Assembly: GCA_016790285.1 (NCBI GenBank)
Contig: JAEUPJ010000091.1
Coordinates: forward strand, 1 to 64,000
Reading direction: 5' to 3'
From: Roseateles sp.
Lineage (GTDB): Bacteria > Pseudomonadota > Gammaproteobacteria > Burkholderiales > Burkholderiaceae_C
DNA length: 64,000 nucleotides
Shown: one piece after another, positions 24,867-60,188 of the stretch
Numbering within the stretch: position 1 is the first letter of the stretch
Layout of the letters: the number at the start of each line of letters is the position of its first letter
Notes under the pieces: model-generated
The model's input: the letters and a program-made list of their open reading frames with translations, nothing else
What the model was told of the DNA's origin: nothing
Database searches by the model: none
Program-made: the position numbers and the translations under genes

Positions 24867-26081
24867 TCAGAGCCTTTCGAAAATGCCGGCGGCGCCTTGG
24901 CCGGCGCCAACGCACATGGTCACCATGCCGTACTTGCCGCCCGTGCGGCGCAGGCCGTGGATGACGGAAGCCGCGCGGATGGCACCGGTGGCGCCCAGCG
25001 GGTGGCCCAGGGCGATGGCGCCGCCGTTGGGGTTGACCTTGGCGCGGTCGAGCTCGAAGCCCTTGCTGTCCAGGTCGTTGAGCACGGCCAGGCTCTGCGC
25101 GGCGAAGGCTTCGTTGAGCTCCACCCAGTCCAGGTCCTTGGCGCTGATGCCAGCGGCCTTCAGCGCCGCCGGGATGGCTTCGATCGGGCCGATGCCCATG
25201 ATCTCGGGCGGCACGCCGCGCACGGCGAAGGACACGAAGCGGGCCAGCGGCGTCAGGTTGTAGCGCTTGAGCGCGGCTTCGCTGACGATGATCAGGCCGC
25301 CGGAGCCGTCCGACGTCTGCGAGCTGTTGCCGGCGGTGACGCTGCCCTTGGCGGCGAACACGGGCTTGAGCTTGGCCAGGCCTTCCAGCGACGTGTCGGG
25401 GCGGGCGCCTTCGTCGAGCTTGACGGTGCGGGTCTTGATGTTGACGGTGCCGTCCGCCAGGTTGGGCGTGCGCTCGATGACGTCGAAAGGCGTCATCTCG
25501 GCGTCGAAGTAGCCCGCCTGCATGGCGGCCACGGCACGGCGGTGCGATTCCACCGAGAAGGCGTCCTGCGCCTCACGGCTGATCTTCCACTGCGCGGCGA
25601 CCTTCTCGGCCGTCAGGCCCATGCCGTAGGCGATGCCGATGTTCTCGTCCTTCTCGAAGATCAGCGGCGACAGGCTCGGCTTGTTGCCGCCCATCGGGAT
25701 CATGGACATCGACTCCACGCCACCGGCGAACATCACGTCGGCCTCGCCCACGCGGATGCGGTCGGCGGCCATCTGCACGGCGGTGATGCCGGAGGCGCAG
25801 TAGCGGTTGATCGTCACGCCGCCCACCGTCGGGCCGAAGCCGGCCAGCACGGAGGCCACGCGGGCGATGTTCATGCCCTGCTCGCCTTCGGGGAAGGAGC
25901 AGCCGACGATGGCGTCTTCAATCGCCTTGGCTTCCAGGCCCGGGGCCTGGGCGAGTGCCGCCTGCATCACCTTGACGAGCATCTCGTCAGGGCGCGTGTT
26001 CTTGAAGTAGCCCCGGCCGCTCTTGCCGATAGGCAGACGGGTGGCGGCGACGATGTAGGCGTCTTGGACTTGCTTGCTCAT
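24867..26081 (-). CDS. fadA: Acetyl-CoA C-acyltransferase (3-ketoacyl-CoA thiolase)
   Basis: A 404 aa thiolase performing the last step of beta-oxidation, releasing acetyl-CoA from 3-ketoacyl-CoA. The active-site Cys is in INRYCASGI, the His in NPNGGAIALGHPLGATGA and the second Cys in CVGAGQGAAG. The length is normal. ATG 26081 is preceded by AAAGGAAAG; 14 upstream codons are in the leader. It is the last gene of the operon that starts with the TetR regulator. Presumably it forms the trifunctional beta-oxidation complex with the FadB/FadJ-like protein encoded two genes earlier. Confidence 0.94.
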   Translation of the reverse strand: MSKQVQDAYIVAATRLPIGKSGRGYFKNTRPDEMLVKVMQAALAQAPGLEAKAIEDAIVGCSFPEGEQGMNIARVASVLAGFGPTVGGVTINRYCASGITAVQMAADRIRVGEADVMFAGGVESMSMIPMGGNKPSLSPLIFEKDENIGIAYGMGLTAEKVAAQWKISREAQDAFSVESHRRAVAAMQAGYFDAEMTPFDVIERTPNLADGTVNIKTRTVKLDEGARPDTSLEGLAKLKPVFAAKGSVTAGNSSQTSDGSGGLIIVSEAALKRYNLTPLARFVSFAVRGVPPEIMGIGPIEAIPAALKAAGISAKDLDWVELNEAFAAQSLAVLNDLDSKGFELDRAKVNPNGGAIALGHPLGATGAIRAASVIHGLRRTGGKYGMVTMCVGAGQGAAGIFERL

Positions 26082-26119
26082 GGTCTTTCCTTTCAAGGCC
26101 CTCGCGGGCCTCTCGTTGT

Positions 26120-26611
26120 TCAAGCCTGGGGCTTCTCTTTGGGCACCCAGGCCCAGACAAATTCACACTGGATCGGCTCGATGCCGGCTTCATCGGTGAC
26201 CGTGACGGCGACGGTCACTTCACCCTTGGTCTCGCGGGCGAGCAGCGCGCGCTGCTCGGCGGTCAGGTGCGCCTGGGCACGCAGGGCCCCGGTCGCGCGC
26301 TTCTTGAACGCGACGTTCAGGCTCTTGCACAGCGGCAGGCAGTCGTCGCGCACATTCATGCCGACGACCATGCCGGTGGCGGTTTCGGCCACCAGCGTCA
26401 TGGCCGCCGCGTGCACGCCGCGGATGTGGTTCTGCACCGGCCGCCGGTTGGCGATGCGGATGTCGCTGCGCTCGGGCGTGAGCGCGACGAAATCCAGCCC
26501 CGCGGTGCCGGTGAGCGGCACCGCGCGGCGCAGCGCGAAGTTGCGCGCGGCGCTGCGCAGCGGGGCGGGCAGGCCGTCCAGCTTGGCGAGGGTGCGTTGA
26601 AGCCGGTTCAT
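26120..26611 (-). CDS. DUF4442 hotdog-fold thioesterase-like protein
   Basis: A 163 aa protein with the DUF4442 hotdog pattern. Visible segments are FVALTPERSDIRIANRRPVQNHIRGVHAAAM and CKSLNVAFKKRATGALRA, then a last strand reading CEFVWAWVPK. It lies between the beta-oxidation bifunctional enzyme gene (8 bp gap) and the thiolase gene. It may hydrolyse stalled acyl-CoA intermediates; this is inferred from the operon. No signal peptide, so cytoplasmic. Confidence 0.83.
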   Translation of the reverse strand: MNRLQRTLAKLDGLPAPLRSAARNFALRRAVPLTGTAGLDFVALTPERSDIRIANRRPVQNHIRGVHAAAMTLVAETATGMVVGMNVRDDCLPLCKSLNVAFKKRATGALRAQAHLTAEQRALLARETKGEVTVAVTVTDEAGIEPIQCEFVWAWVPKEKPQA

Positions 26612-26619
26612 GACCTGGC

Positions 26620-29016
26620 TCAGTTGCGGACGGGCTTGCCCGTTTGCAACATGCCCATGATCCGCTCTTGCGTCTTGGGGTTGTCCAGCAGCGAGCAGAA
26701 GTGCTTGCGCTCCAGGGCCATCAGGTACTCCTCGGTCACCAGGGAACCCGCCTCGACCTCGCCACCGCAGACCACGTCGGCGATCGCCGCGGCCAGGTGG
26801 TAGTCGTGCGCGCTGACGAAGCCGCCGTCACGCATGTTGGCGACCTGGCCCTTGATGGTGGCGATGCCGCTGCGGCCCGCGACCGGGAACACGGCCTTGT
26901 GCGGCGGGCGGTAGCCGGCCTCGGCCATGCCCTTCACGGTGGCCGTGGCCACGTGCAGCAGCTCGTCCTTGTGCGGGACGATGATGTCGCTGTCCAGCAG
27001 GAAGCCGTTCTTCTTCGCCTCGTGCGCCGAGGTCGCGACCTTGGCGGTGGCGGCGGTCAGGAAGCCGTCCTTCAGGAAGCTCAGGATGTCGGCACCGGCA
27101 TTGCCGGCGGCGGCCATCTCGGCGGCACGGCGGGCGATGTAGGTCAGGCCGCCGGCACCCGGCACGAGGCCGACGCCGACTTCCACGAGGCCCACATAGC
27201 TCTCGACGTGCGCCACGCGGCGCGCGCAGTGGATGGCCAGCTCGCAGCCACCCCCCAGCGCCAGGCCGCGCATCGCGGCGACGACCGGCACGCTGGCGTA
27301 GCGGATGCGCAGCATGGCGTCCTGCAGCTTCTTCTCTTCCGGGGCGATGCCCTTGCTGCCCATCTTCATGAAGACGGGCATCAGGCTTTCCAGGTTGGCG
27401 CCCGCCGAGAACACGTCGTCCGGCGACCAGACCACGAGGCCCTTGTACTGGCTTTCAGCAATCTCGACCGCCTTGAGCAGGCCCTCGGTCACGGCCGGGC
27501 TGATCAGGTGCAGCTTGGCGGTGATGGAGGCGATGACGACCTCGCCGTCCAGCGTCCAGACGCGTACTTCATCGTTCTTGAACAGCTCGGTGCCGCTCTT
27601 GAGCGGGTCGGCCGCGCCGGATCCCAGCAGGGCCTCGGGGAAGGCCTGGCGCTGGTAGACGGGCAGCGCGCTGCGCGGCTTGAAGACGCCTTCGGCGGCG
27701 CTCCACGAACCCTGCGGCGTGTGCACGCCACCGGCCTCGGCCACGGGGCCTTCCGTCACCCAGGCGGGCAGCGGGGCGCTGGAGAGGGTCTTGCCGTCGG
27801 CGATGTCGGCCGAGATCCACTCGGCGACCTGCTTCCAGCCGGCGGCCTGCCACAGCTCGAACGGGCCTTGGCTGCTGCCGAAGCCCCAGCGCATCGCGAA
27901 GTCGATCTCGCGGGCGGTGTCGGCGACGGTGGCCAGGTGCACGGCGCAGTAGTGGAAGCTGTCACGCAGGATGGCCCACAGGAACTGGGCCTGCGGGTTG
28001 GTCGATTCGCGCAGCAGCTTCAGGCGGTCGGCCGGGGCCTTCTTGAGCATGCGCGCGACGATCTCGTCGGCCTTCTTGCCGCCGGCCACGTACTCGCCGG
28101 TGGCGAAGTCCAGGCGCTGGATGTCCTTGCCGACCTTCTTGTAGAAGCCCGCGCCCGTCTTCTGGCCGAGCGCGCCCTTCTGGATCAGGCCCGCCAGCAC
28201 GGCCGGGGTGGCATAGGTGCTGTAGAAGGGGTCGTCCTTCAGGTTGTCCTGCATCGTCTTGACGACGTGGGCCATGGTGTCCAGGCCGACGACGTCTGCG
28301 GTGCGGAATGTGCCGGAGCTGGCGCGGCCGAGCTTCTTGCCGGTCAGGTCGTCCACCACGTCCACCGTCAGGCCGAACTTCTCGGCCTCGATCATCGTGG
28401 CCATCATGCCGGCGATGCCGACGCGGTTGGCGACGAAGTTGGGCGTGTCATGGGCGCGCACGACGCTCTTGCCGAGCGACGTCGTCACGAAGGCCTCGAG
28501 CTCGTCGAGGATGTGCGGCTGCGTGGTGGGCGTGTTGATCAGCTCCACCAGCGCCATGTAGCGCGGCGGGTTGAAGAAGTGGATGCCGCAAAAGCGCGGC
28601 TTGATGTCTTCCGGCAGCACCTCGGAAAGCTTGGTGATGGACAGGCCCGAGGTGTTGGACGCCACGATGGCGTGCGGCGCCACGAACGGCGCGATCTTGG
28701 TGTAGAGGTCGAGCTTCCAGTCCATGCGCTCGGCGATGGCCTCGATGACGAGGTCGCAGCCCTTGAGCAGCTCCAGGTGCTCCTCGTAGTTGGCGGGCTG
28801 GATCAGCGCGGCTTCCGACGCATCACCCAGCGGGGCCGGCTTGAGCTTCTTCAGGCCATCGACGGCCTTGGTCACGATGCCGTTCTTCGGGCCTTCCTTG
28901 GCAGGCAGGTCGAACAGCACGACGGGCACCTTGCAGTTGACGAGGTGGGCGGCGATCTGCGCGCCCATCACGCCGGCGCCCAGCACGGCGACCTTGCGGA
29001 CTTGGAATCGACTCAT
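26620..29016 (-). CDS. 3-hydroxyacyl-CoA dehydrogenase / enoyl-CoA hydratase (FadB/FadJ-like)
   Basis: A 798 aa bifunctional beta-oxidation enzyme, but with the dehydrogenase first and the hydratase last. The N-terminal NAD-binding motif is VAVLGAGVMGAQIAAHL, followed by CGIHFFNPPRYM, which holds the 3HCDH active-site His, and TPNFVANRVG. The crotonase-fold half begins near residue 490 and contains SAGANLESL and MRGLALGGGCELAIHC. This arrangement is that of the large proteobacterial relatives sometimes annotated fadB-like or HadH fusion, not the E. coli FadB order. AAGGAG lies ahead of ATG 29016. It is the central gene of the beta-oxidation operon. Confidence 0.92.
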   Translation of the reverse strand: MSRFQVRKVAVLGAGVMGAQIAAHLVNCKVPVVLFDLPAKEGPKNGIVTKAVDGLKKLKPAPLGDASEAALIQPANYEEHLELLKGCDLVIEAIAERMDWKLDLYTKIAPFVAPHAIVASNTSGLSITKLSEVLPEDIKPRFCGIHFFNPPRYMALVELINTPTTQPHILDELEAFVTTSLGKSVVRAHDTPNFVANRVGIAGMMATMIEAEKFGLTVDVVDDLTGKKLGRASSGTFRTADVVGLDTMAHVVKTMQDNLKDDPFYSTYATPAVLAGLIQKGALGQKTGAGFYKKVGKDIQRLDFATGEYVAGGKKADEIVARMLKKAPADRLKLLRESTNPQAQFLWAILRDSFHYCAVHLATVADTAREIDFAMRWGFGSSQGPFELWQAAGWKQVAEWISADIADGKTLSSAPLPAWVTEGPVAEAGGVHTPQGSWSAAEGVFKPRSALPVYQRQAFPEALLGSGAADPLKSGTELFKNDEVRVWTLDGEVVIASITAKLHLISPAVTEGLLKAVEIAESQYKGLVVWSPDDVFSAGANLESLMPVFMKMGSKGIAPEEKKLQDAMLRIRYASVPVVAAMRGLALGGGCELAIHCARRVAHVESYVGLVEVGVGLVPGAGGLTYIARRAAEMAAAGNAGADILSFLKDGFLTAATAKVATSAHEAKKNGFLLDSDIIVPHKDELLHVATATVKGMAEAGYRPPHKAVFPVAGRSGIATIKGQVANMRDGGFVSAHDYHLAAAIADVVCGGEVEAGSLVTEEYLMALERKHFCSLLDNPKTQERIMGMLQTGKPVRN

Positions 29017-29038
29017 TGATTTCTCCTTGGGTGTTCGT

Positions 29039-29464
29039 TCACTCGACGCGGATCCACGTCTGTGTGCGGTAGAAGGGGCCGATGTAGCCGCGCATCTCCA
29101 GTTTCTTGCCACCGTCCACGGGCTTCAGGCGCGTGCGGTAGGTCTTGCCGTTGTTGGGATCGAGGATCTCGCCATGCCCCCAGATGCCTTCACCGTCGGG
29201 CTTCACGCCGCGGATGATCTGCAAGCCCAGCACCGGCTGGTTCTTGCGGTCGTCCGTGCACTTGTCGCATTTGGCATCGCCGGTGTCCTTGGGGTCCAGC
29301 AGTTTCTCGATGCTGCCCACGAGGGCGCCCCCCTGTTCGCTGATGCGAACCAGCGACTTCGCGGTTTTGCCGTCGTCGTCGATGGTCTTCCACAGGCCCA
29401 CGGGTGAGGTCTGCGCGAACGCAAACGCGGGCATCAGCAGGGCAGCAGCGAACAGGAATTTCAT
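29039..29464 (-). CDS. DUF2147 periplasmic protein
   Basis: A 141 aa secreted protein. The signal peptide MKFLFAAALLMPAFAFAQ is followed by the DUF2147 pattern: VGLWKTIDDDGKTAKSLVRI, GIWGHGEILDPNNGKTYRTRL and a last strand FYRTQTWIRVE. A CDKC pair (residues ~66-69) could bind metal or form a disulphide. The fold is lipocalin-like, and a role in binding a fatty or hydrophobic compound is only a guess. It sits inside the beta-oxidation operon between the acyl-CoA dehydrogenase and bifunctional enzyme genes. AAGGAT precedes the ATG. Confidence 0.87.
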   Translation of the reverse strand: MKFLFAAALLMPAFAFAQTSPVGLWKTIDDDGKTAKSLVRISEQGGALVGSIEKLLDPKDTGDAKCDKCTDDRKNQPVLGLQIIRGVKPDGEGIWGHGEILDPNNGKTYRTRLKPVDGGKKLEMRGYIGPFYRTQTWIRVE

Positions 29465-29502: not shown

Positions 29503-31293
29503 TCAGAACAGCGCTTCGTCCATTTCCATCAGCGGCTTCAGGCCAGCGCGGCAGGTGCGGATCAGCGAGGCCGTCTCGGGCAGCAGCTTGGCGAAGTAGA
29601 AGCGCGCCGTGGCCAGCTTGGCGGTGTAGAACGGGTCGCCGGAGTCCTTCTTGGCCAGCGCGATCTTGGCGGCCTGGGCGAAGAAGTAGGCAAAGCACAT
29701 GTGGCCCACCACGCGCAGGTAGTCCACGGCCGCGGCGCCGACTTCGTCGGGGTTGCCGAAGGCCTTCATGCCGATTTCCTGCGTGAGCTTGTTGACCTTG
29801 TCGCCGAGGTCGGCGAGCGGGTTCACGAACTCCTGCATGGCCTCGTTGGTGCCCTCTTCCTCGATGAAGGCGGCGATCTTCTTGCCGAACTTCTTCAGCG
29901 TGGCGCCGTTGTTGCCCAGCACCTTGCGGCCCAGCAGGTCCAGCGACTGGATGGTGTTGGTGCCCTCATAGATCATGTTGATGCGCGCATCGCGCACGTA
30001 CTGCTCCATGCCCCACTCGTGGATGAAGCCGTGGCCGCCGTACACCTGCATGCAGTGCGACGTGGCGAGCCAGCCGTTGTCGGTGATGAAGGCCTTGATG
30101 ATGGGCGTGAGCAGCGCGACTTCGGCGTCGCATTCCTTGCGCTCGTCCTCGTCGTCGCTCTTGAGCGCCTTGTCCAGCTGCAGCACGGTGTAGCCCTGCA
30201 GCATGCGGCCGCCTTCGGCGAAGGCGCGGGCGGTCAGCAGCATCTTGCGCACGTCGGGGTGCACGATGATGGGATCGGCCGCCTTCTCGGGCGCCTTCGG
30301 GCCGGACAGCGCGCGCATTTGCAGGCGGTCCTTGGCGTAGGCCACGGCGTTCTGGTAGGCCACTTCGGTCAGGCCGAGGGACTGGTTGCCCACGCCCAGG
30401 CGGGCGGCGTTCATCATCACGAACATGGCGGCCAGGCCCTTGTTGGGCTCGCCGACCAGGGTGCCGGTGGCGCCTTCCAGCACGATCTGGGCGGTGGCGT
30501 TGCCGTGGATGCCCATCTTGTGCTCGAGGCCCGCGCAGAAGACCCGGTTGCGCTCACCGAGGCTGCCGTCGGCGTTCACGTGGAACTTGGGCACGATGAA
30601 GAGCGAGATGCCCTTGGAGCCGACGGGCGCGTCCGGCAGGCGGGCCAGCACGAGGTGGACGATGTTGTCCGCCAGGTCGTGCTCACCGGCCGAGATGAAG
30701 ATCTTGGCGCCGGTGATCTTGTAGGTGCCGTCGGCTTGCGGCTCGGCCTTGGTGCGCAGCAGGCCCAGGTCGGTGCCGCAGTGCGGCTCGGTCAGGCACA
30801 TCGTGCCCGTCCACTCGCCGCTGGTCAGCTTGGGCAGGTAGAGCGCCTTTTGCTCGGGCGTGCCATGGGCGTGCAGGGCCTCGTAGGCGCCGTGCGAGAG
30901 GCCGGGATACATCGTCCAGGCCTGGTTGGCCGAGTTCAGCATCTCGTAGAAGAACTGGTTAACGAGGTGCGGCAGGCCCTGGCCGCCGTACTCGGGGTCG
31001 CAGGACAGAGCTGGCCAGCCGCCTTCGACGTACTGCTTGTAGGCTTCCTTGAAGCCCTTGGGCGCCGTCACCTCGTGCGTGGCCTTGTCGAGGGTGCAGC
31101 CCTCGGCGTCGCCGCTCAGGTTGATCGGGGCGATGACTTCGGCGGCGAACTTGCCACCTTCCTCGAGCACCGCGTTGATCGTGTCGGCGTCGATGTCCTC
31201 GTGGCCGGGCAACATCTTCAGCTCGTCGACGACGTTCAGCAGCTCGTGCATGACGAACTGCATGTCACGCATGGGCGGGGTGTACTGGGGCAT
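29503..31293 (-). CDS. Acyl-CoA dehydrogenase (long FadE-like / C-terminal extension type)
   Basis: A 596 aa flavoenzyme catalysing the first step of beta-oxidation. Typical segments are WTGTMCLTEPHCGTDLG, KITGAKIFISAGEHDL, the catalytic-region YGGHGFIHEWGMEQYVRDARINMIYEGTN and a C-terminal DUF-type extension ending KPLMEMDEALF. The length places it in the ~600-residue class common in beta- and gammaproteobacteria. Substrate chain length is not predictable. AGGAGT lies before ATG 31293. It follows the TetR gene by 39 bp and is the first enzyme gene of the operon. Confidence 0.94.
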   Translation of the reverse strand: MPQYTPPMRDMQFVMHELLNVVDELKMLPGHEDIDADTINAVLEEGGKFAAEVIAPINLSGDAEGCTLDKATHEVTAPKGFKEAYKQYVEGGWPALSCDPEYGGQGLPHLVNQFFYEMLNSANQAWTMYPGLSHGAYEALHAHGTPEQKALYLPKLTSGEWTGTMCLTEPHCGTDLGLLRTKAEPQADGTYKITGAKIFISAGEHDLADNIVHLVLARLPDAPVGSKGISLFIVPKFHVNADGSLGERNRVFCAGLEHKMGIHGNATAQIVLEGATGTLVGEPNKGLAAMFVMMNAARLGVGNQSLGLTEVAYQNAVAYAKDRLQMRALSGPKAPEKAADPIIVHPDVRKMLLTARAFAEGGRMLQGYTVLQLDKALKSDDEDERKECDAEVALLTPIIKAFITDNGWLATSHCMQVYGGHGFIHEWGMEQYVRDARINMIYEGTNTIQSLDLLGRKVLGNNGATLKKFGKKIAAFIEEEGTNEAMQEFVNPLADLGDKVNKLTQEIGMKAFGNPDEVGAAAVDYLRVVGHMCFAYFFAQAAKIALAKKDSGDPFYTAKLATARFYFAKLLPETASLIRTCRAGLKPLMEMDEALF

Positions 31294-31332: not shown

Positions 31333-32055
31333 TCAGCGCCGCGCGGCGCCGTTCTTGGATGCGGGGCGGCTGCGGTCGACCTCCAGCCCCAGCGGTGTGG
31401 CGTAGAACTGGATGGTTCGCTCGAAACCGTTGCCGGCCCGCGACAGCGCGCCGGGGATGCGCATGAAGCGCGCGTCGTGATGCAGGGACAGGATCAGGCC
31501 GTGCAGCTCGAAGACGATCTGGTCGACGTCGGCGTCCGCGCGCAGGTGACCTTCCTGCACCGACAGCACGATCGCCTTGTGCAGCGCCGCATGCCAGGCC
31601 TTGACCATGCCGACGAGGGCGTCGCGCACGGGGCCGGGCCGGTCGTCGAACTCGACGGCGCCGCTGATGTAGATGCAGCCCGAGTCCACCTCGACCGACA
31701 CGCGGCGCACCCAGCGCTCGAACATCGCGCGCAGGCGCGGCAGGCCGCGCGGCTCGCGGATGGCGGTGAAAAAGACTTCTTCCTCGAACTTGGCGTGGTA
31801 CTCGGTCACCACGGCAATCTGCAGCTCCTCGCGGGAGCCGAAGTGCGCGAAGACGCCGGACTTGCTCATGGCCGTCACGTCCGCCAGCGCGCCGATGGAC
31901 AAGCCCTCCAGGCCCATGTGCGAGGCCAGCCCCAGCGCCGCTTCGAGGATGGCCGCGCGGGTCTGCTGGCCCTTTTGCAGCGAACGCGCAACGCGCGCCG
32001 GCTTGGGCGAGCGCAGCGGGGCGGCTTTCTTGGCAGGGACGGGCAGCGTGCTCAC
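31333..32055 (-). CDS. TetR-family regulator of the beta-oxidation operon
   Basis: A 240 aa repressor. After a basic, Pro/Lys-rich tail the helix-turn-helix domain runs from about residue 32 (TRAAILEAALGLASHMGLEGLSIG to MSKSGVFAHFGSREELQIAVV). The C-terminal ligand-binding domain is of the TetR_C type. It probably senses an acyl-CoA, as do FadR/PsrA-like TetR proteins heading fatty acid operons, but that is inferred from position. The start is a GTG at 32055. A perfect 12-bp palindrome in its promoter is the likely operator, giving autoregulation and control of the genes behind it. Confidence 0.88.
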   Translation of the reverse strand: MSTLPVPAKKAAPLRSPKPARVARSLQKGQQTRAAILEAALGLASHMGLEGLSIGALADVTAMSKSGVFAHFGSREELQIAVVTEYHAKFEEEVFFTAIREPRGLPRLRAMFERWVRRVSVEVDSGCIYISGAVEFDDRPGPVRDALVGMVKAWHAALHKAIVLSVQEGHLRADADVDQIVFELHGLILSLHHDARFMRIPGALSRAGNGFERTIQFYATPLGLEVDRSRPASKNGAARR

Positions 32056-32071
32056 GAACAGACGGGCAGGA

Positions 32072-32100
32072 ATAAAACGAACGATCGTTCTATTTTGCAG
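32072..32100 (-). promoter_or_regulatory. Promoter of the tetR/beta-oxidation operon
   Basis: Read on the minus strand: -35 CTGCAA (32095-32100), a 17-bp spacer, and -10 TTTTAT (32072-32077). The operator palindrome fills most of the spacer, so a bound repressor would block polymerase. The AT-rich stretch stands out from the GC-rich surroundings. The hexamers match the sigma-70 consensus only partly. Confidence 0.6.
32079..32090. promoter_or_regulatory. TetR operator palindrome
   Basis: A perfect 12-bp palindrome, GAACGATCGTTC, flanked by A/T-rich sequence. It lies 24 bp upstream of the regulator's GTG start. The ACGANCGTT-type core is common for TetR proteins controlling fatty acid genes. 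Its place between the -35 and -10 elements supports repression. Confidence 0.8.
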
Positions 32101-32212
32101 GTCGCTCCCGCGACAGCGCCAGCGCAGTCCGACTAAATCCTAGGGTGATGTGCCTAAAACTGCCTGCAACCTAGGGTTCACCCGAGGGAGATCGCTTGTC
32201 ATGACCCTGCGC

Positions 32213-36487: not shown

Positions 36488-36510
36488 AAAAAGCCCGGCC
36501 GAAGCCGGGC
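36488..36510 (-). terminator. Rho-independent terminator of the acyl-CoA reductase gene
   Basis: On the minus strand a 7-bp stem (GCCCGGC, tetraloop TTCG, GCCGGGC) is followed by TTTTTCG. It lies 20 bp after the stop codon at 36531 and ahead of the GNAT gene. Confidence 0.85.
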
Positions 36511-36530
36511 CGGATGCAGAGTGTGCCTCG

Positions 36531-38522
36531 TCAGAAGTGAATGCCGCGCATCATCTGCTGCAGCGCGATCGCCTCGGGCGACAGGCCGCCCTTGCCCTTC
36601 TCGCCCTTGGCCGCGTCGCTGTCCGGGAACATGCGGAAGGTCGTGTTCATGACGATCTGCGCGATGCGCGGCGCCGCGGCGTGCAGCAGCTCGCCCGAGA
36701 TGCCCAGACGCGTGGCGATGCGCACCGGCTTGCTGATGCAGGCCTGCGCGATCATGTCGCCGGCCTCCTCCGGCGACAGCGTCGGCACGTTGTTGTAGAT
36801 CTTGGTAGGCGCGATCATCGGCGTGCGCACCAGCGGCATGTTGATGGTGGTGAAGGTGATGCCGGTGTCCGCGAACTCGCTGGAGGCGCAGCGCGTCCAG
36901 GCGTCCAGCGCGGCCTTGGAGGCCACGTAGGCGCTGAAGCGCGGCGCGTTCGTCAGCACGCCGATGGAGCTGATGTTCACCACATGGCCGCGGCGCTTGG
37001 CCACCATGCCGGGCAGCAGGCCCATGGTCACGCGCAGGCAGCCGAAGTAGTTGAGGTCCATCGTCCGCTGGAAGTCGTGGAAGCGGTCGTAGCTGCTCTC
37101 GATGGCGCGGCGGATGGAGCGGCCGGCGTTGTTGATGAGGAAATCCACGCCGCCGAAGTTGGTCGTGCACCACTCGATCAGCGACGCGCAACCTTCCTCG
37201 TCGGCGATGTCGCAGGCAAAGGCGTGGATCTGGGCGTTCTTGCCAGCCTTGTCCTTGATCTCCTTGACGGCCTCGTCGAGCTTGATCTGGTCGCGTGCAC
37301 AGATCAGCGTGATGGCGCCCGCCTCGGCGAACTTGGTGGCTGCCGCCAGGCCGATGCCCGACGAGCCGCCGGTGACGAGCACCACCTTGCCGCCGGTCGC
37401 GCCGCGCAGGCTGCGGTCGATGAAGAGGTCGGGGTCGAGATGACGCTCCCAGTAGTCCCACAGACGCCAGGCGTAGTCGTTCAGGTCGGGGCAGGCGATG
37501 CCCGAGCCCTTGAGCGCGGCCTCGGTGTCACGGCAGTCGAAGCGCGTGGGGTAGTTGATGAAGGTGAACATGTCCTCGGGCAGGCCGAGGTCCTTCATGA
37601 CGGCGTTGCGGATGCGGCGCACCGGCGCCAGCGCCATCAGGCCCTTCTTGACGCTCTTGGGGATGAAGCCCATCAACGCGGCGTTGATGAAGAGGTTCAT
37701 CTTGGGCGCGTGCGCAGCCTTGCTGAAGATGTCCAGCACGTCGCCGACGCGGTAGCCCTTCGGGTCCACGAGGTGGTAGCAGCCCTGGCCCTTGGTGACC
37801 TTGTGCGAGATGTGGTCGAGCGCGTTGACGACGAAGTCCACCGGCACGATGTTGATGCGGCCACCCTCCAGGCCGATGCTGGGCATCCAGGGCGGCAGGA
37901 TCTGGCGCATGCGCTGGATCAGCTTGAAGAAGTAGTAAGGCCCGTCGATCTTGTCCATCTCGCCGGTGGTGGAGTCGCCCACCACGAGCGCGGGGCGGTA
38001 GACCGTCCAGGGCCGCTTGCACTCCTTGCGCACGATCTTCTCGCTCTCGTGCTTGGTCATGAAGTACGGGTGGTCGAGGTTCTCGGCCTCGTCGAACATG
38101 TCCTCGCGGAACACGCCTTCGTACAGGCCCGCCGCGGCGATGGAGCTCACGTGGTGCACATGACCCGCGTCGATCGCCTGCGCGAACTCGACCATGCTGC
38201 GGGTGCCCTCGATGTTCACGGCCACCTGCGAGTCTTCATCAGCGCCGAGGTCGTACACGGCGGCCAGGTGGTAGAGGTGGTCGATCTGGCCCTTCAGGCT
38301 CTTGATGACGTCGCTGGCCACGCCGAGCTTCTTGCTCGTGAGGTCGCCGTAGATGGGAATCGCCCGCGTCTTGCTGACGCCCCAGTAGGCCAGCAGGTCC
38401 GGCAGCTTGCCCGCGCTTTCCTCGCGCATCAGGAAGTAGACCGTGCTGCCGCGGCGGGCCAGCAGCTTCTTGACGAGCCGCTTGCCGATGAATCCGGTGG
38501 CGCCAGTGACGAAATACTGCAT
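36531..38522 (-). CDS. Two-domain fatty acyl-CoA reductase (alcohol-forming type)
   Basis: A 663 aa fusion of two SDR domains. The first is an extended SDR (MQYFVTGATGFIGKRLVKKL, HLYHLAAVYDLGADED, HHVSSIAAAGLYEG, catalytic-type YFMTKHESEKIVRKE). The second is a classical SDR from about residue 372 (VVLVTGGSSGIGLAAATKFA, NNAGRSIRRAI, INMPLVRTPMIAPTKIYNN with YVASKAALDAW). From memory the length, order and many segments match the Marinobacter fatty acyl-CoA reductase of ~661 aa that turns acyl-CoA into fatty alcohol using NADPH. Candidate role: fatty alcohol or wax ester formation. AGGAGA precedes ATG 38522. The gene is divergent from the phasin gene. Confidence 0.87.
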   Translation of the reverse strand: MQYFVTGATGFIGKRLVKKLLARRGSTVYFLMREESAGKLPDLLAYWGVSKTRAIPIYGDLTSKKLGVASDVIKSLKGQIDHLYHLAAVYDLGADEDSQVAVNIEGTRSMVEFAQAIDAGHVHHVSSIAAAGLYEGVFREDMFDEAENLDHPYFMTKHESEKIVRKECKRPWTVYRPALVVGDSTTGEMDKIDGPYYFFKLIQRMRQILPPWMPSIGLEGGRINIVPVDFVVNALDHISHKVTKGQGCYHLVDPKGYRVGDVLDIFSKAAHAPKMNLFINAALMGFIPKSVKKGLMALAPVRRIRNAVMKDLGLPEDMFTFINYPTRFDCRDTEAALKGSGIACPDLNDYAWRLWDYWERHLDPDLFIDRSLRGATGGKVVLVTGGSSGIGLAAATKFAEAGAITLICARDQIKLDEAVKEIKDKAGKNAQIHAFACDIADEEGCASLIEWCTTNFGGVDFLINNAGRSIRRAIESSYDRFHDFQRTMDLNYFGCLRVTMGLLPGMVAKRRGHVVNISSIGVLTNAPRFSAYVASKAALDAWTRCASSEFADTGITFTTINMPLVRTPMIAPTKIYNNVPTLSPEEAGDMIAQACISKPVRIATRLGISGELLHAAAPRIAQIVMNTTFRMFPDSDAAKGEKGKGGLSPEAIALQQMMRGIHF

Positions 38523-38710
38523 GCGGGTCTCCTGCTTGTTGAGGTTGTCAGGTCGATTCTTCACCAGGGTTTCAGCGCGCCCGGTGGGCACTTTCCCCAG
38601 GAAATGACGGAGCCTAGCGTAGAGCGCCCACACTAGGAATCGGCGTGCCATGCCGAAGTGCGCCCGCTACAGTCCCGTCAGCAATTCGCTCAACTGCAAG
38701 GACACTCCCC

Positions 38711-39451
38711 ATGGTCAAGAAGCTCCAGAAGATGGCAGACAAGAAGAAGGCTGCGGCCGCCACCGGCTTCCCGGCCGGCCTGCTCGACAGCGCAATGGCA
38801 CACAACGTCAAGGACAGCGCCCAGCAGATCTGGGCCGCCGGTCTCGCCTCCTTCGCCAAGGCCCAGGGCGAAGGCTCCAAGGTCTTCGAGGCCCTCGTCT
38901 CGGAAGGACTCAAATTGCAGAAGAAGACCCAATCCGCCGCTGAAGAAAAGCTCAGCGCCGTCGCCACCAAGGTCAGCGGCATGGCCGGTGATGTCGGCTC
39001 CAAGGCCGGCCAGCACTGGGACAAGCTGGAATCCATCTTCGAGCAACGCGTCGCCAAGGCCCTGAAGAGCCTGGGCGTGCCGTCCGCCGGTGATGTCGAG
39101 AGCCTGATCAAGCGCATCGACGCCCTGGCCGTGTCGGCCGGCCTCAAGAAGGCCACGCCCGCCAAGGCGGCCAAGAAGGCCGTCGTCAAGAAGGCGGCTG
39201 CCGTGAAGAAGGCCGTGGCCAAGAAGGCCCCGGCTGCCAAGAAGGCCGTTGCCAAGGCTGCCGCCCCCGTGAAGGCAGCCGTCAAGACCGTCGCCAAGAA
39301 GGCCGCCCCGGCCAAGAAGGCGGCTGCCACACCCGCCAAGAAGGCCGCCGCCACCCCGGCGAAGAAGGCAGCTCCCGCCAAGAAGGCCCCGGCCGCCAAG
39401 AAGGCCGCCCCCGCCGCCGCCCCGGCCACCGAGACCTCGGCCCAGGCCTGA
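38711..39451 (+). CDS. PhaF-like polyhydroxyalkanoate granule protein (phasin) with histone-like tail
   Basis: A 246 aa phasin. The first ~145 residues form the granule-binding helix (SAQQIWAAGLASFAKAQGEG, then WDKLESIFEQRVAKALKSLG and GVPSAGDVESLIKRIDAL), as in Pseudomonas PhaF/PhaI. From ~150 on, the tail is built of KKA/PAKKAA repeats like histone H1 and AlgP. In PhaF that tail binds DNA and spreads granules between daughter cells. The tail contains over 30 lysines. ATG 38711 was chosen because homologues start here. The patatin gene follows 26 bp later. Confidence 0.9.
   Translation: MVKKLQKMADKKKAAAATGFPAGLLDSAMAHNVKDSAQQIWAAGLASFAKAQGEGSKVFEALVSEGLKLQKKTQSAAEEKLSAVATKVSGMAGDVGSKAGQHWDKLESIFEQRVAKALKSLGVPSAGDVESLIKRIDALAVSAGLKKATPAKAAKKAVVKKAAAVKKAVAKKAPAAKKAVAKAAAPVKAAVKTVAKKAAPAKKAAATPAKKAAATPAKKAAPAKKAPAAKKAAPAAAPATETSAQA
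39160..39430 (+). repeat. Degenerate KKA/PAKKA-coding repeats inside the phasin gene
   Basis: Irregular repeats of AAGAAGGCC and GCCAAGAAGGCC encode the basic tail. Unit lengths vary and no block is perfectly conserved, as is usual for histone-like tails. The tract is prone to slippage in frame. Confidence 0.8.
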
Positions 39452-39477
39452 TCCCGTCTGACTGACCTTTCTGCACC

Positions 39478-40707
39478 ATGAGCCAACCACGCATCGGGTT
39501 GGCCCTGGCCGGCGGAGGCCCACTGGGCGCCATCTACGAAGTTGGCGCCCTTTGTGCTTTGGAGGAGGCCGTCGAGGGCCTGGACTTCACCGCCTGCGAT
39601 GGCTACATCGGCGTCAGCGCCGGCGGCTTCATGGCCGCTGGCCTGGCCAACGGCATGACGCCGCGCCAACTCTGCGCCGCCTTCATCGAGAACACCGCCG
39701 AGCCGCCGGACCGCTTCGACCCCGCCGAGCTGCTGCAGCCCGCCTGGACCGAATTCGGCCAGCGCCTGCGCCTGCTGCCCAGCCTGCTGCGTGACGCGGC
39801 GCGCGAGGTGCTGGTGGAAGGCCGCTCGGTACTGGGCGCCGTCGAGCGGCTGGGGCGCGTGCTGCCGACCGGGCTGCTGTCGAGCGACCGCTTCGGCGAG
39901 GCACTCGACCGCGTCTTCGCCCTGCCCGGGCGCAGCAACGACTTCCGCAAGCTCCGCCACCGCCTCATCCTCGTCGCGACCGACCTGGACAGCGGCGAGG
40001 CCATTCCCTTCGGCGCCGAGGGCTGGGACCACGTGCCCATCTCGCAGGCCGTGCAGGCCAGCGCCGCGCTGCCGGGCCTGTTCCCGCCCGTGGAGATCGA
40101 GGGCCGCTATTTCGTGGACGGCGCGCTCAAGAAGACGCTGCACGCCTCCGTGCTGCTGGACCGCGGCCTGGACCTGCTCATCTGCCTGAACCCGCTCGTG
40201 CCCTACGCCAGCAACCGCCTGTCCTCGCGCGACGCCCGCTCGCGCCGGGCCCGCAAGCTCGCCAGCCGCCTGGGCCGCGCGCCGCAGCCGCGCATCCACC
40301 GCCTGGTGGATGGCGGCCTGCCGCTGGTGCTGTCGCAGACCTTCCGCTCCCTCATCCACTCGCGCCTGGAGCTGGGCATCCGCGGCTACGAACTGAGCCA
40401 TCCGCAGACCGACATCGTGCTGTTCGAGCCCGACCCGCGCGACGCCGAGCTCTTCATGGCCAACACCTTCAGCTACCGCCAGCGCCGCCACCTCGCCGAG
40501 CACGCCTACCAGGCCACGCGCGAGCTGCTGCGCGAGCGTGCGGCCGACCTGGCGCCCAAGTTCGCGCGCGCCGGCCTGCGCCTGCGCGAGGACGTGCTGG
40601 CCAGCCGCGAGGCGCGCCTGCTGCCCGCACCGGGCGAGACGCGCATGCAGGAAGCCCTGCGCACGCTGCGCAGCACCCTCAGCGTGCTCGAGGCCCGCGC
40701 CCGCTAG
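39478..40707 (+). CDS. Patatin-like phospholipase
   Basis: A 409 aa serine lipase-like protein. The glycine-rich oxyanion motif is LALAGGGPLGAIYEVGAL, the nucleophile elbow is GVSAGGF (GxSxG) and the catalytic Asp is in YFVDGALK (DGA/G). Patatins hydrolyse acyl esters of glycerolipids; a few are PHA depolymerases. The C-terminal ~150 residues are basic and helical. It lies 26 bp after the phasin gene, so a role in mobilising stored lipid or PHA is plausible but unproven. It is convergent with ubiM, with a 4-bp overlap. Confidence 0.9.
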   Translation: MSQPRIGLALAGGGPLGAIYEVGALCALEEAVEGLDFTACDGYIGVSAGGFMAAGLANGMTPRQLCAAFIENTAEPPDRFDPAELLQPAWTEFGQRLRLLPSLLRDAAREVLVEGRSVLGAVERLGRVLPTGLLSSDRFGEALDRVFALPGRSNDFRKLRHRLILVATDLDSGEAIPFGAEGWDHVPISQAVQASAALPGLFPPVEIEGRYFVDGALKKTLHASVLLDRGLDLLICLNPLVPYASNRLSSRDARSRRARKLASRLGRAPQPRIHRLVDGGLPLVLSQTFRSLIHSRLELGIRGYELSHPQTDIVLFEPDPRDAELFMANTFSYRQRRHLAEHAYQATRELLRERAADLAPKFARAGLRLREDVLASREARLLPAPGETRMQEALRTLRSTLSVLEARAR

Positions 40708-41873: not shown

Positions 41874-41983
41874 GGCCGGGCAGCCTAGGCTCGGTACAGC
41901 GCGGGCGCCTTGACGCACGTCAGCCACAGCGCGCGATTCCCGACGGCGGTGTGGGGTTCCCCGCCTGCAGGCAGCATGTGGCC

Positions 41984-57021: not shown

Positions 57022-58671
57022 TCAGGCGGCGTGGGCCAGTTGGGCGACCACCTCGGGTTGCCGCGCCGCAGCCTGCATCATCTGCGCGGCCTTCTCGCCG
57101 ATCATCATGGCCGGCGCGTTGGTGTTGCCGCTGATGAGGTTGGGCATGATGGAAGCGTCCACCACGCGCAGGCCCTGCAGGCCGTGCACGCGCAGCTCGG
57201 GGTCCACGACGGCCATGGCGTCCACGCCCATCTTGCAGGTGCCCACCGGGTGGTAGATGGTGTCCACGCGCTGGCGCAGCAGGGCCTCGATCTCGGCGTC
57301 GGTGCGGGCCTCGGCGCCCCACATCTCGTGGGTCCAGTGGGCGCGCAGGGACGGCTGGTTGAGCAGCTCACGCGTCTTCTTGAAGCCGGCCACCATCTGC
57401 GCGAGGTCGTCCGGGTGCTGGAAGAAGGCCGGGTCGATCAGCGGCGCTGCGCCCACCTCGCGGCTCGCCAGCTTGAGCGTGCCCCGGCTCCTGGGCCGCA
57501 GCAGACAGACGTGGCACGACAGGCCGTGGCCCACGCCGAGCTTGCGGGCGTGGTCTTCCACGGCGGCCACGACGAAGTGCAGCTGCACATCGGGCCGCTC
57601 GGCGTCGGGCGAGGCGCGCAGGAAGCCGCCGCCCTCGGCGAAGTTGCTTGTCAGCATGCCGCGGCGCTCCTGGCGGTAGCGCTTCAGGGCGCGCCAGAAG
57701 GCCAGCCCGCCGCCCAGGGACACGCCGAAGCTGTCCAGGCTCTTGCTGCGCAGGCCGAAGACGAAGTCGGGGTGGTCTTGCAGGTTGGCGCCGACGCCCG
57801 GCAGGTGGTGGCGCACCTCGATGCCGTGGGCCTGCAGTTGAGCGGCGTCGCCCACGCCCGAGAGCATCAGCAGCTGGGGCGACTGGATGGCCCCGGCCGC
57901 CAGCACCACCTCGCGGCGGGCCTGCAGCCGGCGCAGCTCGCCGCCCACCTTGACCTCCACGCCGATGGCGCGGCGGCCCTCGAACAGGATGCGCTGGACC
58001 TGGGCGTTCGCCGTGACGCGCAGGTTGGGCCGGTGCAGGTGCGGGCGCAGGTAGGCGCGGGCCGCATTGCAGCGCTCGCCGCGGTCCTGCGTCACCTGGT
58101 AGATGCCAATGCCTTCTTGCGATTCCCCGTTGAAGTCGTGGTTGATGGCGTGGCCTGCCTCACGGCCCGCCGCCACCCAAGCCTGCTGCAGCGGGTTGTC
58201 GCTGCGCAGCTGGCTCACCTTGAGCGGGCCGGCCTGGCCGTGCAGCGGCGCGCCGAAGCTGTCGTTGCACTCACTCTGGATGAAGTACGGCAGCACGTCG
58301 TCCCAGCCCCAGCCGGTGTTGCCCAGCGCCGCCCACTCGTCGTAGTCCTCGCGCTGGCCTCGGATGTAGACCATGGCGTTGATGCCGGATGAGCCGCCCA
58401 GCATCTTGCCGCGCGGCACATAGCCGCGCCGGCCGTTCAGGCCGGGCTGCGGCACGGTCTCGAAGGCGTAGTTGTGCAGCTTGCTCGGCACCATCAGCAC
58501 CGCGGCGGTGGGCACGTTGGCCAGCCAGTTGTTGACATCGGCCCCCGCCTCCAGCACGAGCACGGCGGTGGCGGGGTCTTCGCTCAGTCGGCCGGCCAGG
58601 GCCGAGCCCGAGGAGCCGGCGCCGATGACGATGACGTCGTGGGATTCGTCGAAGCGTTGGGAGTCTTGCAT
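57022..58671 (-). CDS. GMC-family FAD-dependent alcohol/choline dehydrogenase
   Basis: A 549 aa flavoprotein of the glucose-methanol-choline family. The FAD motif is VIVIGAGSSGSALAGRL. GKMLGGSSGINAMVYIRG is GMC signature 1, and GAIQSPQLLMLSG signature 2. The catalytic His/Asn block near the end reads IYHPVGTCKMG and ISGNTNAPAMMIGEKAA. The nearest groups are alkane-derived alcohol dehydrogenases (AlkJ-like) and choline dehydrogenase. The aldehyde dehydrogenase gene 7 bp upstream points to two-step alcohol oxidation. Membrane association is likely but no helix is obvious. Confidence 0.92.
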   Translation of the reverse strand: MQDSQRFDESHDVIVIGAGSSGSALAGRLSEDPATAVLVLEAGADVNNWLANVPTAAVLMVPSKLHNYAFETVPQPGLNGRRGYVPRGKMLGGSSGINAMVYIRGQREDYDEWAALGNTGWGWDDVLPYFIQSECNDSFGAPLHGQAGPLKVSQLRSDNPLQQAWVAAGREAGHAINHDFNGESQEGIGIYQVTQDRGERCNAARAYLRPHLHRPNLRVTANAQVQRILFEGRRAIGVEVKVGGELRRLQARREVVLAAGAIQSPQLLMLSGVGDAAQLQAHGIEVRHHLPGVGANLQDHPDFVFGLRSKSLDSFGVSLGGGLAFWRALKRYRQERRGMLTSNFAEGGGFLRASPDAERPDVQLHFVVAAVEDHARKLGVGHGLSCHVCLLRPRSRGTLKLASREVGAAPLIDPAFFQHPDDLAQMVAGFKKTRELLNQPSLRAHWTHEMWGAEARTDAEIEALLRQRVDTIYHPVGTCKMGVDAMAVVDPELRVHGLQGLRVVDASIMPNLISGNTNAPAMMIGEKAAQMMQAAARQPEVVAQLAHAA

Positions 58672-58678
58672 GGGGGCC

Positions 58679-60088: not shown

Positions 60089-60164
60089 GGGGCTGTCTCC
60101 GGTACTTCTTGTGAATGCACCGAGGCTAAACCCATCTGAAAGCCCCTCCATCGGGGCCGGCCCT

Positions 60165-60188
60165 CGACTAGAGGATTGCGTCTAGTCG
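60165..60188. promoter_or_regulatory. Inverted repeat, likely activator site for the ALDH-GMC operon
   Basis: CGACTAGA (60165-60172), an 8-bp spacer GGATTGCG, and TCTAGTCG (60181-60188). The arms are perfect 8-bp reverse complements. The CTAG core is rare in this genome, so chance is unlikely. It is 77-100 bp upstream of the ALDH start, a suitable place for an activator. No regulator gene is nearby. Confidence 0.65.

Follow-up and report, generated by a model that had tools for sequence, protein, structure and literature searches.

Alcohol-forming fatty acyl-CoA reductases (FAR) of the AcrB type, for which PRK07201 served as the profile, are accompanied by a WS/DGAT 94% of the time in the excerpted part of a published survey of acrB (PMC11948995). 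On Burkholderiales ws/dgat scaffolds from sediment metagenomes, an acyl-CoA-binding protein (ACBP) and a Maqu_2507-like reductase lie near ws/dgat and one scaffold also holds a phasin, which the excerpts of that study used here take as PHA metabolism (PMC10351704). In our own assessment, Maqu_2507 of Marinobacter is probably of the AcrB type. A TetR gene heading beta-oxidation genes is likewise found in Burkholderiales in the FadP regulon of beta-proteobacteria (excerpts of PMC5343134 and PMC12543098).

Here we analyse a stretch of 64,000 nucleotides (the window) from a genome of the Roseateles/Pelomonas type, in which a FAR gene, a phasin gene and a patatin gene adjoin. An earlier note on this DNA had suggested that these genes share a role in the storage or turnover of neutral lipid or wax esters. 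Co-occurrence, synteny and a shared palindrome support this suggestion, and we estimate at roughly three in four the probability that the locus forms part of a system by which Burkholderiales store and turn over wax esters (neutral lipid), including the steps and the regulation proposed below. The basis of this reading is family membership, co-occurrence, synteny and a conserved palindrome.

The reductase, phasin and patatin genes

The core of the locus comprises the following features:

36492..36514, minus strand: terminator-like hairpin directly 3' of the FAR gene (hairpin scan, weak)
36531..38522, minus strand: FAR, AcrB-type alcohol-forming fatty acyl-CoA reductase by sequence match, 663 aa, two SDR domains (NF005539/PRK07201; PF07993 and PF00106)
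38711..39451, plus strand: PF05597 phasin, 246 aa, helical domain and Lys/Ala-rich tail (Pfam; AF2 model)
39478..40707, plus strand: patatin-like lipase of 409 aa; the motifs GGGPLG, GVSAG and DGA are present (PF01734; motifs from sequence)

For FAR we chose the ATG at 38522 as start, the longest open reading frame being 706 aa. The protein matches NCBIfam NF005539/PRK07201 over residues 1-663 with 996.6 bits (cut-off 549), and Pfam places NAD_binding_4 at 5-234 and adh_short at 379-571, in line with the two-domain alcohol-forming reductase proposed earlier. SDR domains carry a cofactor motif and Y-x-x-x-K. By sequence reading, both motifs are present in both SDR domains of the window's FAR, and each of these four patterns recurs in 96 of 97 FAR open reading frames, duplicate loci included. 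Judged by its full-length PRK07201 match, the window's FAR is of the AcrB type. It shares with the described AcrB-type reductases (PMC11948995, in excerpt) this whole-length match, the two SDR domains and, in 32 of 32 FAR-bearing genomes, the accompanying WS/DGAT; it differs in that it is divergent from a phasin gene. Roseateles puraquae, a cultured relative with both FAR and WS/DGAT, encodes a FAR that is 96% identical. No solved structure covering both domains is found among the best 60 of 625 matches.

The phasin scores 139 bits against PF05597 (gathering score 28.8), and falls below the curated cut-off of TIGR01837 PHA_granule_1 (89.5 versus 94.7 bits). Its AF2 model (mean pLDDT 68, pTM 0.28) shows helices at 3-17, 24-54, 56-120 and 126-142, followed by a tail of low confidence. 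The phasin stop codon ends at 39451 and the patatin ATG lies at 39478, which leaves the 26 bp gap reported before. The patatin reaches 104 bits against PF01734 (cut-off 27.7); among 57 patatin open reading frames across the loci, the GxSxG nucleophile elbow is present in 55 and the DG[AG] dyad motif in 53, and the only solved relative is PlpD (5fqu). A consensus scan for sigma-70 promoters found none in the locus. The evidence for the hairpin behind FAR is weak because the region holds four hairpins compared to 2.3 in shuffled sequences.

Co-occurrence with wax ester synthases

To compare gene content we used 60 genomes, i.e. the window's own and 59 relatives, with presence thresholds of E 1e-60 for FAR, 1e-30 or better for patatin, 1e-25 for the TPR protein described below and 1e-3 for Pfam families. 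Hereby, FAR occurs in 32 and WS/DGAT in 34 genomes, and FAR without WS/DGAT in none. At the level of 41 genera, with G018 representing the window's genus, 14 hold both, one holds WS/DGAT only, none holds FAR only and 26 hold neither, tests of such co-occurrence being optimistic because the genome rows are phylogenetically related.

Gene order was followed in 80 FAR loci, drawn from at least 585 FAR relatives; the loci come from Roseateles, Acidovorax, Polaromonas, Hydrogenophaga and others. Among all loci compared in this work, L137 duplicates L072. The divergent FAR-phasin pair of the earlier note is kept in 72 of these 80 loci; since it recurs so often among the loci listed, the arrangement is not due to chance. 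Of the 73 loci with 3 kb or more of upstream sequence, 48 contain patatin, which in 47 of these 48 lies directly behind the phasin (gap ≤600 bp), both counts among the matches listed. Nine of the 32 FAR-bearing genomes lack patatin.

The alcohol made by FAR might instead serve a non-storage purpose such as ether lipids or the envelope, which would account for the clustering near rfb genes: an RfbB-like gene is present in 23 FAR-bearing loci that also hold the phasin. The same rfb genes are found in seven FAR-free phasin loci, however, and are therefore background; together with the observation that FAR never occurs without WS/DGAT in the 60 genomes, this makes a non-storage purpose most improbable.

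The earlier note had described the window as lacking a wax ester synthase. With the PF03007 profile, contig C23, to which the window belongs, yields no WS/DGAT; three are encoded on other contigs, with the HHxxxDG motifs HHAAVDG, HHAVADG and HHCIADG. Two of the three pass the TIGR02946 cut-off; the third reaches 300.3 versus 309.95 bits. In several genera, WS/DGAT, ACBP, a TetR regulator and a TPR protein form one cluster with the FAR-phasin pair. The window's genome has this WS/DGAT-ACBP-TetR-TPR half on a contig other than that of the FAR-phasin half, namely C4, where the best matches of the four cluster genes lie together. A WS/DGAT resides within the FAR-phasin cluster in 7 of the 80 loci listed, and adjoins the phasin or FAR in six further genomes. 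The other two WS/DGAT loci (ten neighbouring genes scanned) show no module genes: one (L160) is flanked by transport-binding proteins, ClpP and alpha/beta hydrolases, the other (L161) by thiolase, MFS transporter, GTPase, chemotaxis and cytochrome genes. The ordered cluster, the co-occurrence test, the TPR protein and the palindrome described below go unmentioned in the excerpts of PMC10351704.

The TPR protein is present in 33 of the 34 WS-bearing genomes and in 1 of the 26 others. In a structural search with it, the first three chains are of BstC (PDB 7t1s), a sterol carrier (PMC10942540, in excerpt), and of the TPR domain of PTPIP51 (7cc7), with TM-scores of 0.62-0.63 of the query at 15-19% identity and an rmsd of 4.8-6.2. 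Further structural matches are generic TPR proteins.

Affiliation of the phasin

The gene divergent from FAR had been called a PhaF-like granule protein. PhaF of Pseudomonas, for which a link between inclusions and nucleoid has been proposed, shares the PF05597 domain and the Lys/Ala-rich tail with the window's phasin. In place of a PHA synthase gene, the window's phasin has FAR and patatin as neighbours, which sets it apart from PhaF and PhaI of Pseudomonas, and phasins of its type track FAR and WS/DGAT instead of PhaC in other families. That phasins can coat TAG inclusions is seen with PhaP1 (PMC6273058, in excerpt). Among 24 genomes of other families, all 5 with FAR have the PF05597 phasin and none of the 19 without FAR does, so that it matches FAR/WS in 24 of 24, whereas another phasin family, PF09361, matches PhaC exactly (16 of 16 PhaC-bearing, 0 of 8 PhaC-free genomes). 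Hereby, the PF05597 phasin is missing from 11 of the 16 PhaC-bearing genomes and was not found in any of the 11 that have PhaC and lack FAR. As the phasin tracks FAR/WS and not PHA synthase in these families, the label "PhaF-like granule protein" is not to be equated with a protein of PHA granules; the assignment to the PF05597 phasins holds.

Within the window's own family the picture is less uniform. The PF05597 phasin is kept in 7 of 7 FAR-free genera examined at the locus (6 of 7 with PhaC, 4 of 7 with the palindrome), and likewise in a WS-bearing genome in which FAR was not found (G028), so that it may also serve PHA or something else; a second role beside the wax pathway may thus exist. 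The phasin could accordingly be an ordinary PHA (PHB) granule protein that merely neighbours a wax-ester gene of a separate storage system. Its family name, its retention in these FAR-free genera and the presence of PHA synthase in 19 of 19 congeners searched speak for this possibility, as does the ability of phasins to associate with different kinds of inclusion, shown by the binding of PhaP1 to TAG inclusions (PMC6273058, in excerpt). The exact partition in the other families, the missed PHA_granule_1 cut-off and the lack of a PhaC_N match in the window's assembly speak against it, although loss of PHA synthase and an assembly gap are indistinguishable here because the draft is 95% complete and all 19 congeners have PhaC. 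Moreover, the phasin is more diverged where FAR is gone, even though PhaC is found in six of these seven genomes: median identity of phasins at FAR-less loci to FAR-linked phasins is 38-70%, compared to 70-83% (median 80%) of FAR-linked phasins among themselves, while the neighbouring RfbB is not diverged where FAR is missing. Identity relative to RfbB was used since the FAR-free rows do not form one clade in the phasin tree (3 changes) and several of them sit on very long branches. Taken together, we regard an ordinary PHA phasin as unlikely; a PHA-granule unit as sole explanation is weakened by the co-occurrence, and retains some probability within the window's own family.

A phasin of dual use, which would coat PHB granules as well as wax-ester/TAG droplets and tie these inclusions to the nucleoid by its Lys/Ala-rich tail, is a real possibility, yet one to which we give less than even odds. 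The window-type phasin is kept with PhaC in FAR-free genera, and the share of K, A and P beyond residue 140 ranges over 0.44-0.93 across 94 rows linked to FAR or WS, compared to 0.17-0.67 across the 7 FAR-free rows; its absence from the 11 genomes of other families with PhaC and without FAR is at odds with dual use. Such a dual role is compatible with the wax-ester storage reading for the remainder of the locus. From its distribution, the putative droplet-coat gene of the locus, labelled as PHA-granule protein, appears to belong with the wax pathway.

A shared palindrome and the proposed pathway

A TAG-N10-CTA palindrome and a beta-oxidation operon, which the earlier note had placed 5 kb away and whose near end lies roughly 4.5 kb from the 3' end of FAR, connect the locus to further genes of the window:

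24867..26123, minus strand: acetyl-CoA C-acyltransferase (thiolase; NF006553, 704 bits, cut-off 567)
26620..29112, minus strand: FadB-like 3-hydroxyacyl-CoA dehydrogenase/enoyl-CoA hydratase (NF052272, 599 bits, below cut-off 999)
29503..31293, minus strand: acyl-CoA dehydrogenase-like protein, 596 aa (matches several acyl-CoA dehydrogenase families, each with a score short of the curated cut-off)
31333..32055, minus strand: TetR regulator heading the beta-oxidation genes (PF00440 and PF16925)
32080..32089, unstranded: palindrome AACGATCGTT in the promoter of the fad TetR gene; AACGANCGTT occurs nowhere else in the window (motif search)
32141..32156, unstranded: second TAG-N10-CTA palindrome, upstream of the TetR/fad genes (motif search)
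38620..38635, unstranded: TAG-N10-CTA palindrome TAGAGCGCCCACACTA in the FAR-phasin intergenic region, a predicted operator (motif search)
57022..58671, minus strand: GMC oxidoreductase of 549 aa that resembles choline dehydrogenase and may act on long-chain alcohols (PF00732 and PF05199)
58679..60151, minus strand: aldehyde dehydrogenase (ALDH), 490 aa, candidate fatty aldehyde oxidiser, substrate inferred (PF00171)
60169..60184, unstranded: third TAG-N10-CTA palindrome, upstream of ALDH at 17 bp from its start codon (motif search)

Between FAR and phasin, TAG-N10-CTA occurs in 81 of 85 regions (these include L155-L157, duplicates of L060, L065 and L051, which a set of 82 excludes) and ranks first among 1344 palindromes tested. 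One may suspect a phylogenetic relic or a promoter feature rather than an operator, since the genome rows are related and the palindrome was first spotted by eye in these very regions. Nevertheless, 30 of 33 mutually diverged intergenic regions retain it, compared to a simulated mean of 0.57 and a maximum of 5. A matrix built from the FAR-phasin regions alone (chance matches at score 12 about 0.14 per 10 kb) detects a site in 26 of 33 sequences upstream of the fad TetR gene, and in 9 of 13 from outside the genus; here, the TetR set consists of 30 TetR matches as loci, the window's own included, and four loci of the FAR set, one upstream region of less than 200 bp being excluded from the 33. 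The palindrome also precedes ALDH in 14 of 14 congeners in which ALDH was found, and these 304 kb contain one further match. A relic or promoter feature is, in view of these data, very unlikely. Within the window, a tightened form occurs three times (FAR-phasin, beta-oxidation operon, ALDH) versus 0.16 expected. No matrix site ≥12 and no TAGD-N8-HCTA was found at the WS/DGAT half on contig C4 (L162) or at L160 and L161.

Among 10 distinct FARs that are not beside the main phasin, 9 are without the palindrome and the tenth adjoins a second phasin, while 4 of 7 FAR-free phasins keep it. The palindrome thus travels with the phasin rather than with FAR, and control of FAR is therefore uncertain. 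The three FAR-free genomes that could be compared at the fad TetR promoter have no TAG-N10-CTA at that site. By gene context, this TetR is a probable FadP. Of 34 regions upstream of TetR, 23 carry its promoter palindrome exactly and 32 the looser form NACGRYCGTT; compared to the FadP regulon, the window-type promoter has TAG-N10-CTA as a second palindrome beside NACGRYCGTT. Co-occurrence, synteny and the shared palindrome support that the beta-oxidation operon is tied to the locus by more than proximity.

For ALDH, no NCBIfam model reaches its cut-off, and the GMC oxidoreductase falls below that of NF002550 (587 versus 605 bits). Of 13 congeners whose sequence extends far enough, only 6 have the GMC gene behind ALDH and 7 lack it. 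We therefore rejected the two as a conserved alcohol-oxidation unit, which slightly lowers the probability that we give to both readings below.

From these observations we infer substrates, droplet coating, the palindrome-binding protein and the direction of regulation as follows. FAR would reduce acyl-CoA to fatty alcohol with NADPH, and WS/DGAT (here the C4 copy) would join the alcohol to acyl-CoA delivered by the neighbouring ACBP. The phasin would coat the resulting droplets and the patatin would hydrolyse the stored lipid, whereupon ALDH (here with the GMC oxidoreductase) and the beta-oxidation operon would recover alcohol and fatty acid. A repressor on TAG-N10-CTA, probably one of the two TetR proteins, would tune phasin(-patatin), the fad operon, ALDH and perhaps FAR. 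A bolder version, which we advance tentatively and hold somewhat likelier to fail than to stand, is that the "PHA-granule" phasin lineage in Burkholderiales is a dedicated wax-droplet coat, that an undescribed TAG-N10-CTA operator co-ordinates coat, beta-oxidation and aldehyde oxidation, and that an unrecognised TPR carrier of BstC/PTPIP51 fold passes lipid to or from WS/DGAT.

Should the phasin lineage prove to belong to the wax pathway, many genes annotated as "PHA granule" would need a new label. With the TPR protein, a new candidate emerges for neutral-lipid traffic within the cell, and FAR, WS/DGAT, ACBP, phasin, patatin, TPR protein and ALDH, together with the predicted operator, represent a compact testable set for the choice between PHB and wax in environmental bacteria.

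The FAR locus as half of a divided cluster

The window, the first 64 kb of contig C23, belongs to a bacterium of the Roseateles/Pelomonas type; among named FARs the closest to its own, at 96% identity, is that of Roseateles puraquae. The draft assembly comprises 5.88 Mb in 107 contigs and is 95% complete. The FAR, an alcohol-forming fatty acyl-CoA reductase, is divergent from a phasin that is followed by a patatin:

36531-38522, minus strand: FAR, full-length match to NF005539/PRK07201 (996.6 bits)
38711-39451, plus strand: phasin, PF05597 (139 bits)
39478-40707, plus strand: patatin, with the motifs GGGPLG, GVSAG and DGA present in the sequence

PRK07201 is the profile for the alcohol-forming reductase AcrB in an excerpt of a 2025 study (PMC11948995). 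The phasin scores below the PHA_granule_1 cut-off, and its AlphaFold2 model (mean pLDDT 68, pTM 0.28) has long helices and a tail of low confidence; this would suit a protein that coats surfaces but is no proof of it. Convergent with the patatin, a UbiH/UbiM-like FAD hydroxylase gene (40704-41927, minus strand) overlaps the patatin stop by 4 bp.

This arrangement is widely conserved. The phasin is divergent from FAR within 800 bp in 72 of 80 named FAR loci; among the remaining eight it lies 1.9-6.1 kb away in four, and four are without a phasin in the available sequence, which extends 12 to 1722 bases upstream. Where at least 3 kb upstream of FAR is available, a divergent phasin is found in 69/73 loci and a patatin in 48/73, in 47 of these 48 no more than 600 bp behind the phasin. 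WS/DGAT, the wax ester synthase, shares the locus in 7 of the 73.

The earlier note had found no wax ester synthase in the window, which holds, and a search of the genome recovered three WS/DGAT genes, with the motifs HHAAVDG, HHAVADG and HHCIADG. The one at C4:164120 is 62% identical to the cluster-type WS/DGAT of another genome (G020), the other two 27% and 25%. Its neighbour is an acyl-CoA-binding protein gene (ACBP); a TetR gene and the following gene are located 5-6 kb away:

L162:14841-15611 (contig C4, outside the window): uncharacterised TPR protein, 257 aa

In four loci of other genera (L131, L144, L090, L105) the order is undivided, namely ACBP, WS/DGAT, TPR, TetR, patatin, phasin and divergent FAR. 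Variants occur at L145, L147, L141 (FAR on another contig) and L136 (no FAR found in the genome). Since other genera have all these genes together, the window locus represents half of a cluster.

PTPIP51 transfers lipid, and its TPR domain (7cc7) is, together with two chains of BstC (7t1s), among the first three chains retrieved in a PDB structural search with the confident AlphaFold2 model of the L105 TPR orthologue (pLDDT 94.9); later matches are generic TPR proteins. In sequence, four TPR orthologues match the RMD1-3 family weakly (E 0.0007 to 0.07, all below cut-off), in agreement with the PTPIP51-like structural match, and in a profile search designed TPR proteins and O-GlcNAc transferases rank ahead of 7cc7 (E 0.006). 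BstC is a bacterial sterol carrier according to an excerpt of PMC10942540. The TPR protein is a candidate lipid carrier.

A shared palindrome at three sites in the window

A palindrome, TAG-N10-CTA, was first spotted by eye in the FAR-phasin intergenic regions and tested afterwards. It is present in 81 of 85 such regions, compared to 2.25 in shuffles; each of the other spacings of TAG/CTA between 0 and 15 is found in no more than six of the 85. After removal of three duplicate loci it is found in 78/82 regions and ranks first of 1344 palindromes (64 half-sites at 21 spacings), the runner-up occurring in 41. For mutually diverged regions the count is 30 of 33, whereas 500 Markov simulations gave 0.57 on average and never more than 5.

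Where phasin and FAR lie apart or FAR is not found, it is the phasin that keeps the palindrome: the site precedes five of nine such phasins (L080, L084, L136, L141, L147), and it is kept in 4/7 FAR-free phasin loci. Ten distinct FARs lie away from the main phasin; nine of them are without the palindrome, and the tenth (L147) adjoins a second phasin. The genome concerned, G057, has two PF05597 phasins (L147:14722-15135 and 3693-4148), of which one is divergent from FAR and the other lies near WS/DGAT; the palindrome precedes both. At the WS/DGAT loci of the window's genome, scans with a matrix built from the FAR-phasin sites (cut-off score 12) and with the pattern TAGD-N8-HCTA did not find the palindrome.

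Within the 64-kb window the matrix yields two sites scoring at least 12, at 38617 (a training site) and 32138. The pattern occurs three times, versus 0.16 expected (0/100 shuffles had three), namely at these two sites and at a third one. The promoter of the TetR gene heading the beta-oxidation (fad) operon, which site 32138 precedes, carries a second palindrome:

32080-32089: AACGATCGTT, fad TetR promoter, single occurrence in the window
60169-60184: third TAG-N10-CTA site, 17 bp upstream of the start of an aldehyde dehydrogenase (ALDH) gene

A matrix site precedes the fad TetR in 26 of 33 regions, the window's included (0.46 in shuffles), and in 9/13 outside the genus; no TAG-N10-CTA site was found there in the three testable FAR-free genomes or in FAR-bearing G020. 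The exact sequence AACGANCGTT is present in 23 of 34 fad TetR upstream regions; NACGRYCGTT occurs in 32 of the 34, among them regions of FAR-free genomes. The AACGANCGTT palindrome may be an autoregulatory site of FadP, the TetR regulator described in excerpts of PMC5343134 and PMC12543098.

With a matrix score of ~12.0 the third site is just short of the cut-off. Downstream of the ALDH gene by 7 bp lies a GMC oxidoreductase gene, the whole stretch spanning 57022-60184. Sixteen 19-kb stretches from relatives were compared: ALDH was found in 14, all of them congeners, and in each of these 14 the palindrome is located 29-33 bases ahead of the alignment-implied start, with one further match in those 304 kb. 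The GMC gene follows ALDH in 6/13 congeners with room for it.

Phasin assignment across genomes

A phasin near bacterial ws/dgat has previously been interpreted as part of PHA metabolism (PMC10351704, in excerpt). A PF07167 profile search did not find the PHA synthase PhaC in the window's 95% complete draft genome, in which a congener's phaC region (6 kb) has matches at paralogue level only; either an assembly gap or gene loss would account for this. PhaC is present in 19/19 congeners.

Co-occurrence was examined in 60 genomes from 41 genera, namely that of the window and 59 relatives. FAR is present in 32 of them, WS/DGAT and the TPR protein in 34 each, patatin in 24, PF05597 in 40, PF09361 in 51 and PhaC in 50; as the genomes are phylogenetically related, test values are indicative only. 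Neither FAR nor patatin ever occurs without WS/DGAT, and the two WS-only genomes (G010, G028) are 83% and 89% complete. The TPR protein accompanies 33/34 WS-bearing genomes versus 1/26 others.

The two readings of the phasin, wax ester or PHA, are discriminated by the 24 genomes of other families. There, PF05597 occurs in 5/5 FAR-bearing and 0/19 FAR-free genomes, 11 of the latter having PhaC, and PF09361 follows PhaC (16/16 PhaC-bearing, 0/8 PhaC-free). Counting against a wax-only phasin, PF05597 is retained in seven FAR-free genera examined in the window's own family, six with PhaC and the seventh represented by a 65% complete genome. From their seven loci FAR, WS/DGAT and patatin are absent, by loss or because they were never gained; TetR is kept in 6/7 and ACBP in 3/7. 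Compared with FAR-linked phasins, those of these loci have median identities of 38-70%, whereas 23 FAR-linked ones reach 70-83% (median 80%) among themselves, the ranges touching at 70%. RfbB, which these loci also encode, is as well conserved in FAR-free loci (80-86%) as otherwise (median 84%). Judged by sequence identity, it seems to be mainly the FAR/WS pathway that constrains the phasin.

Proposed wax ester pathway

In the open-licence literature searched for phasins, wax esters and the genera concerned, we found no report of a wax-ester-dedicated phasin, the palindrome or the TPR protein. The enzymes are of known kinds; the gene combination, the reassigned phasin and the predicted operator appear to be new. 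FAR would convert acyl-CoA to alcohol, probably to be esterified by WS/DGAT with ACBP as acyl-CoA carrier, and the phasin would coat the storage droplets. Patatin may mobilise the stored lipid. ALDH would recover the alcohol together with a partner that oxidises alcohols, in this genome perhaps the GMC oxidoreductase, and beta-oxidation would recover the acid. A putative repressor binding the palindrome would coordinate the coat, aldehyde oxidation and acid oxidation.
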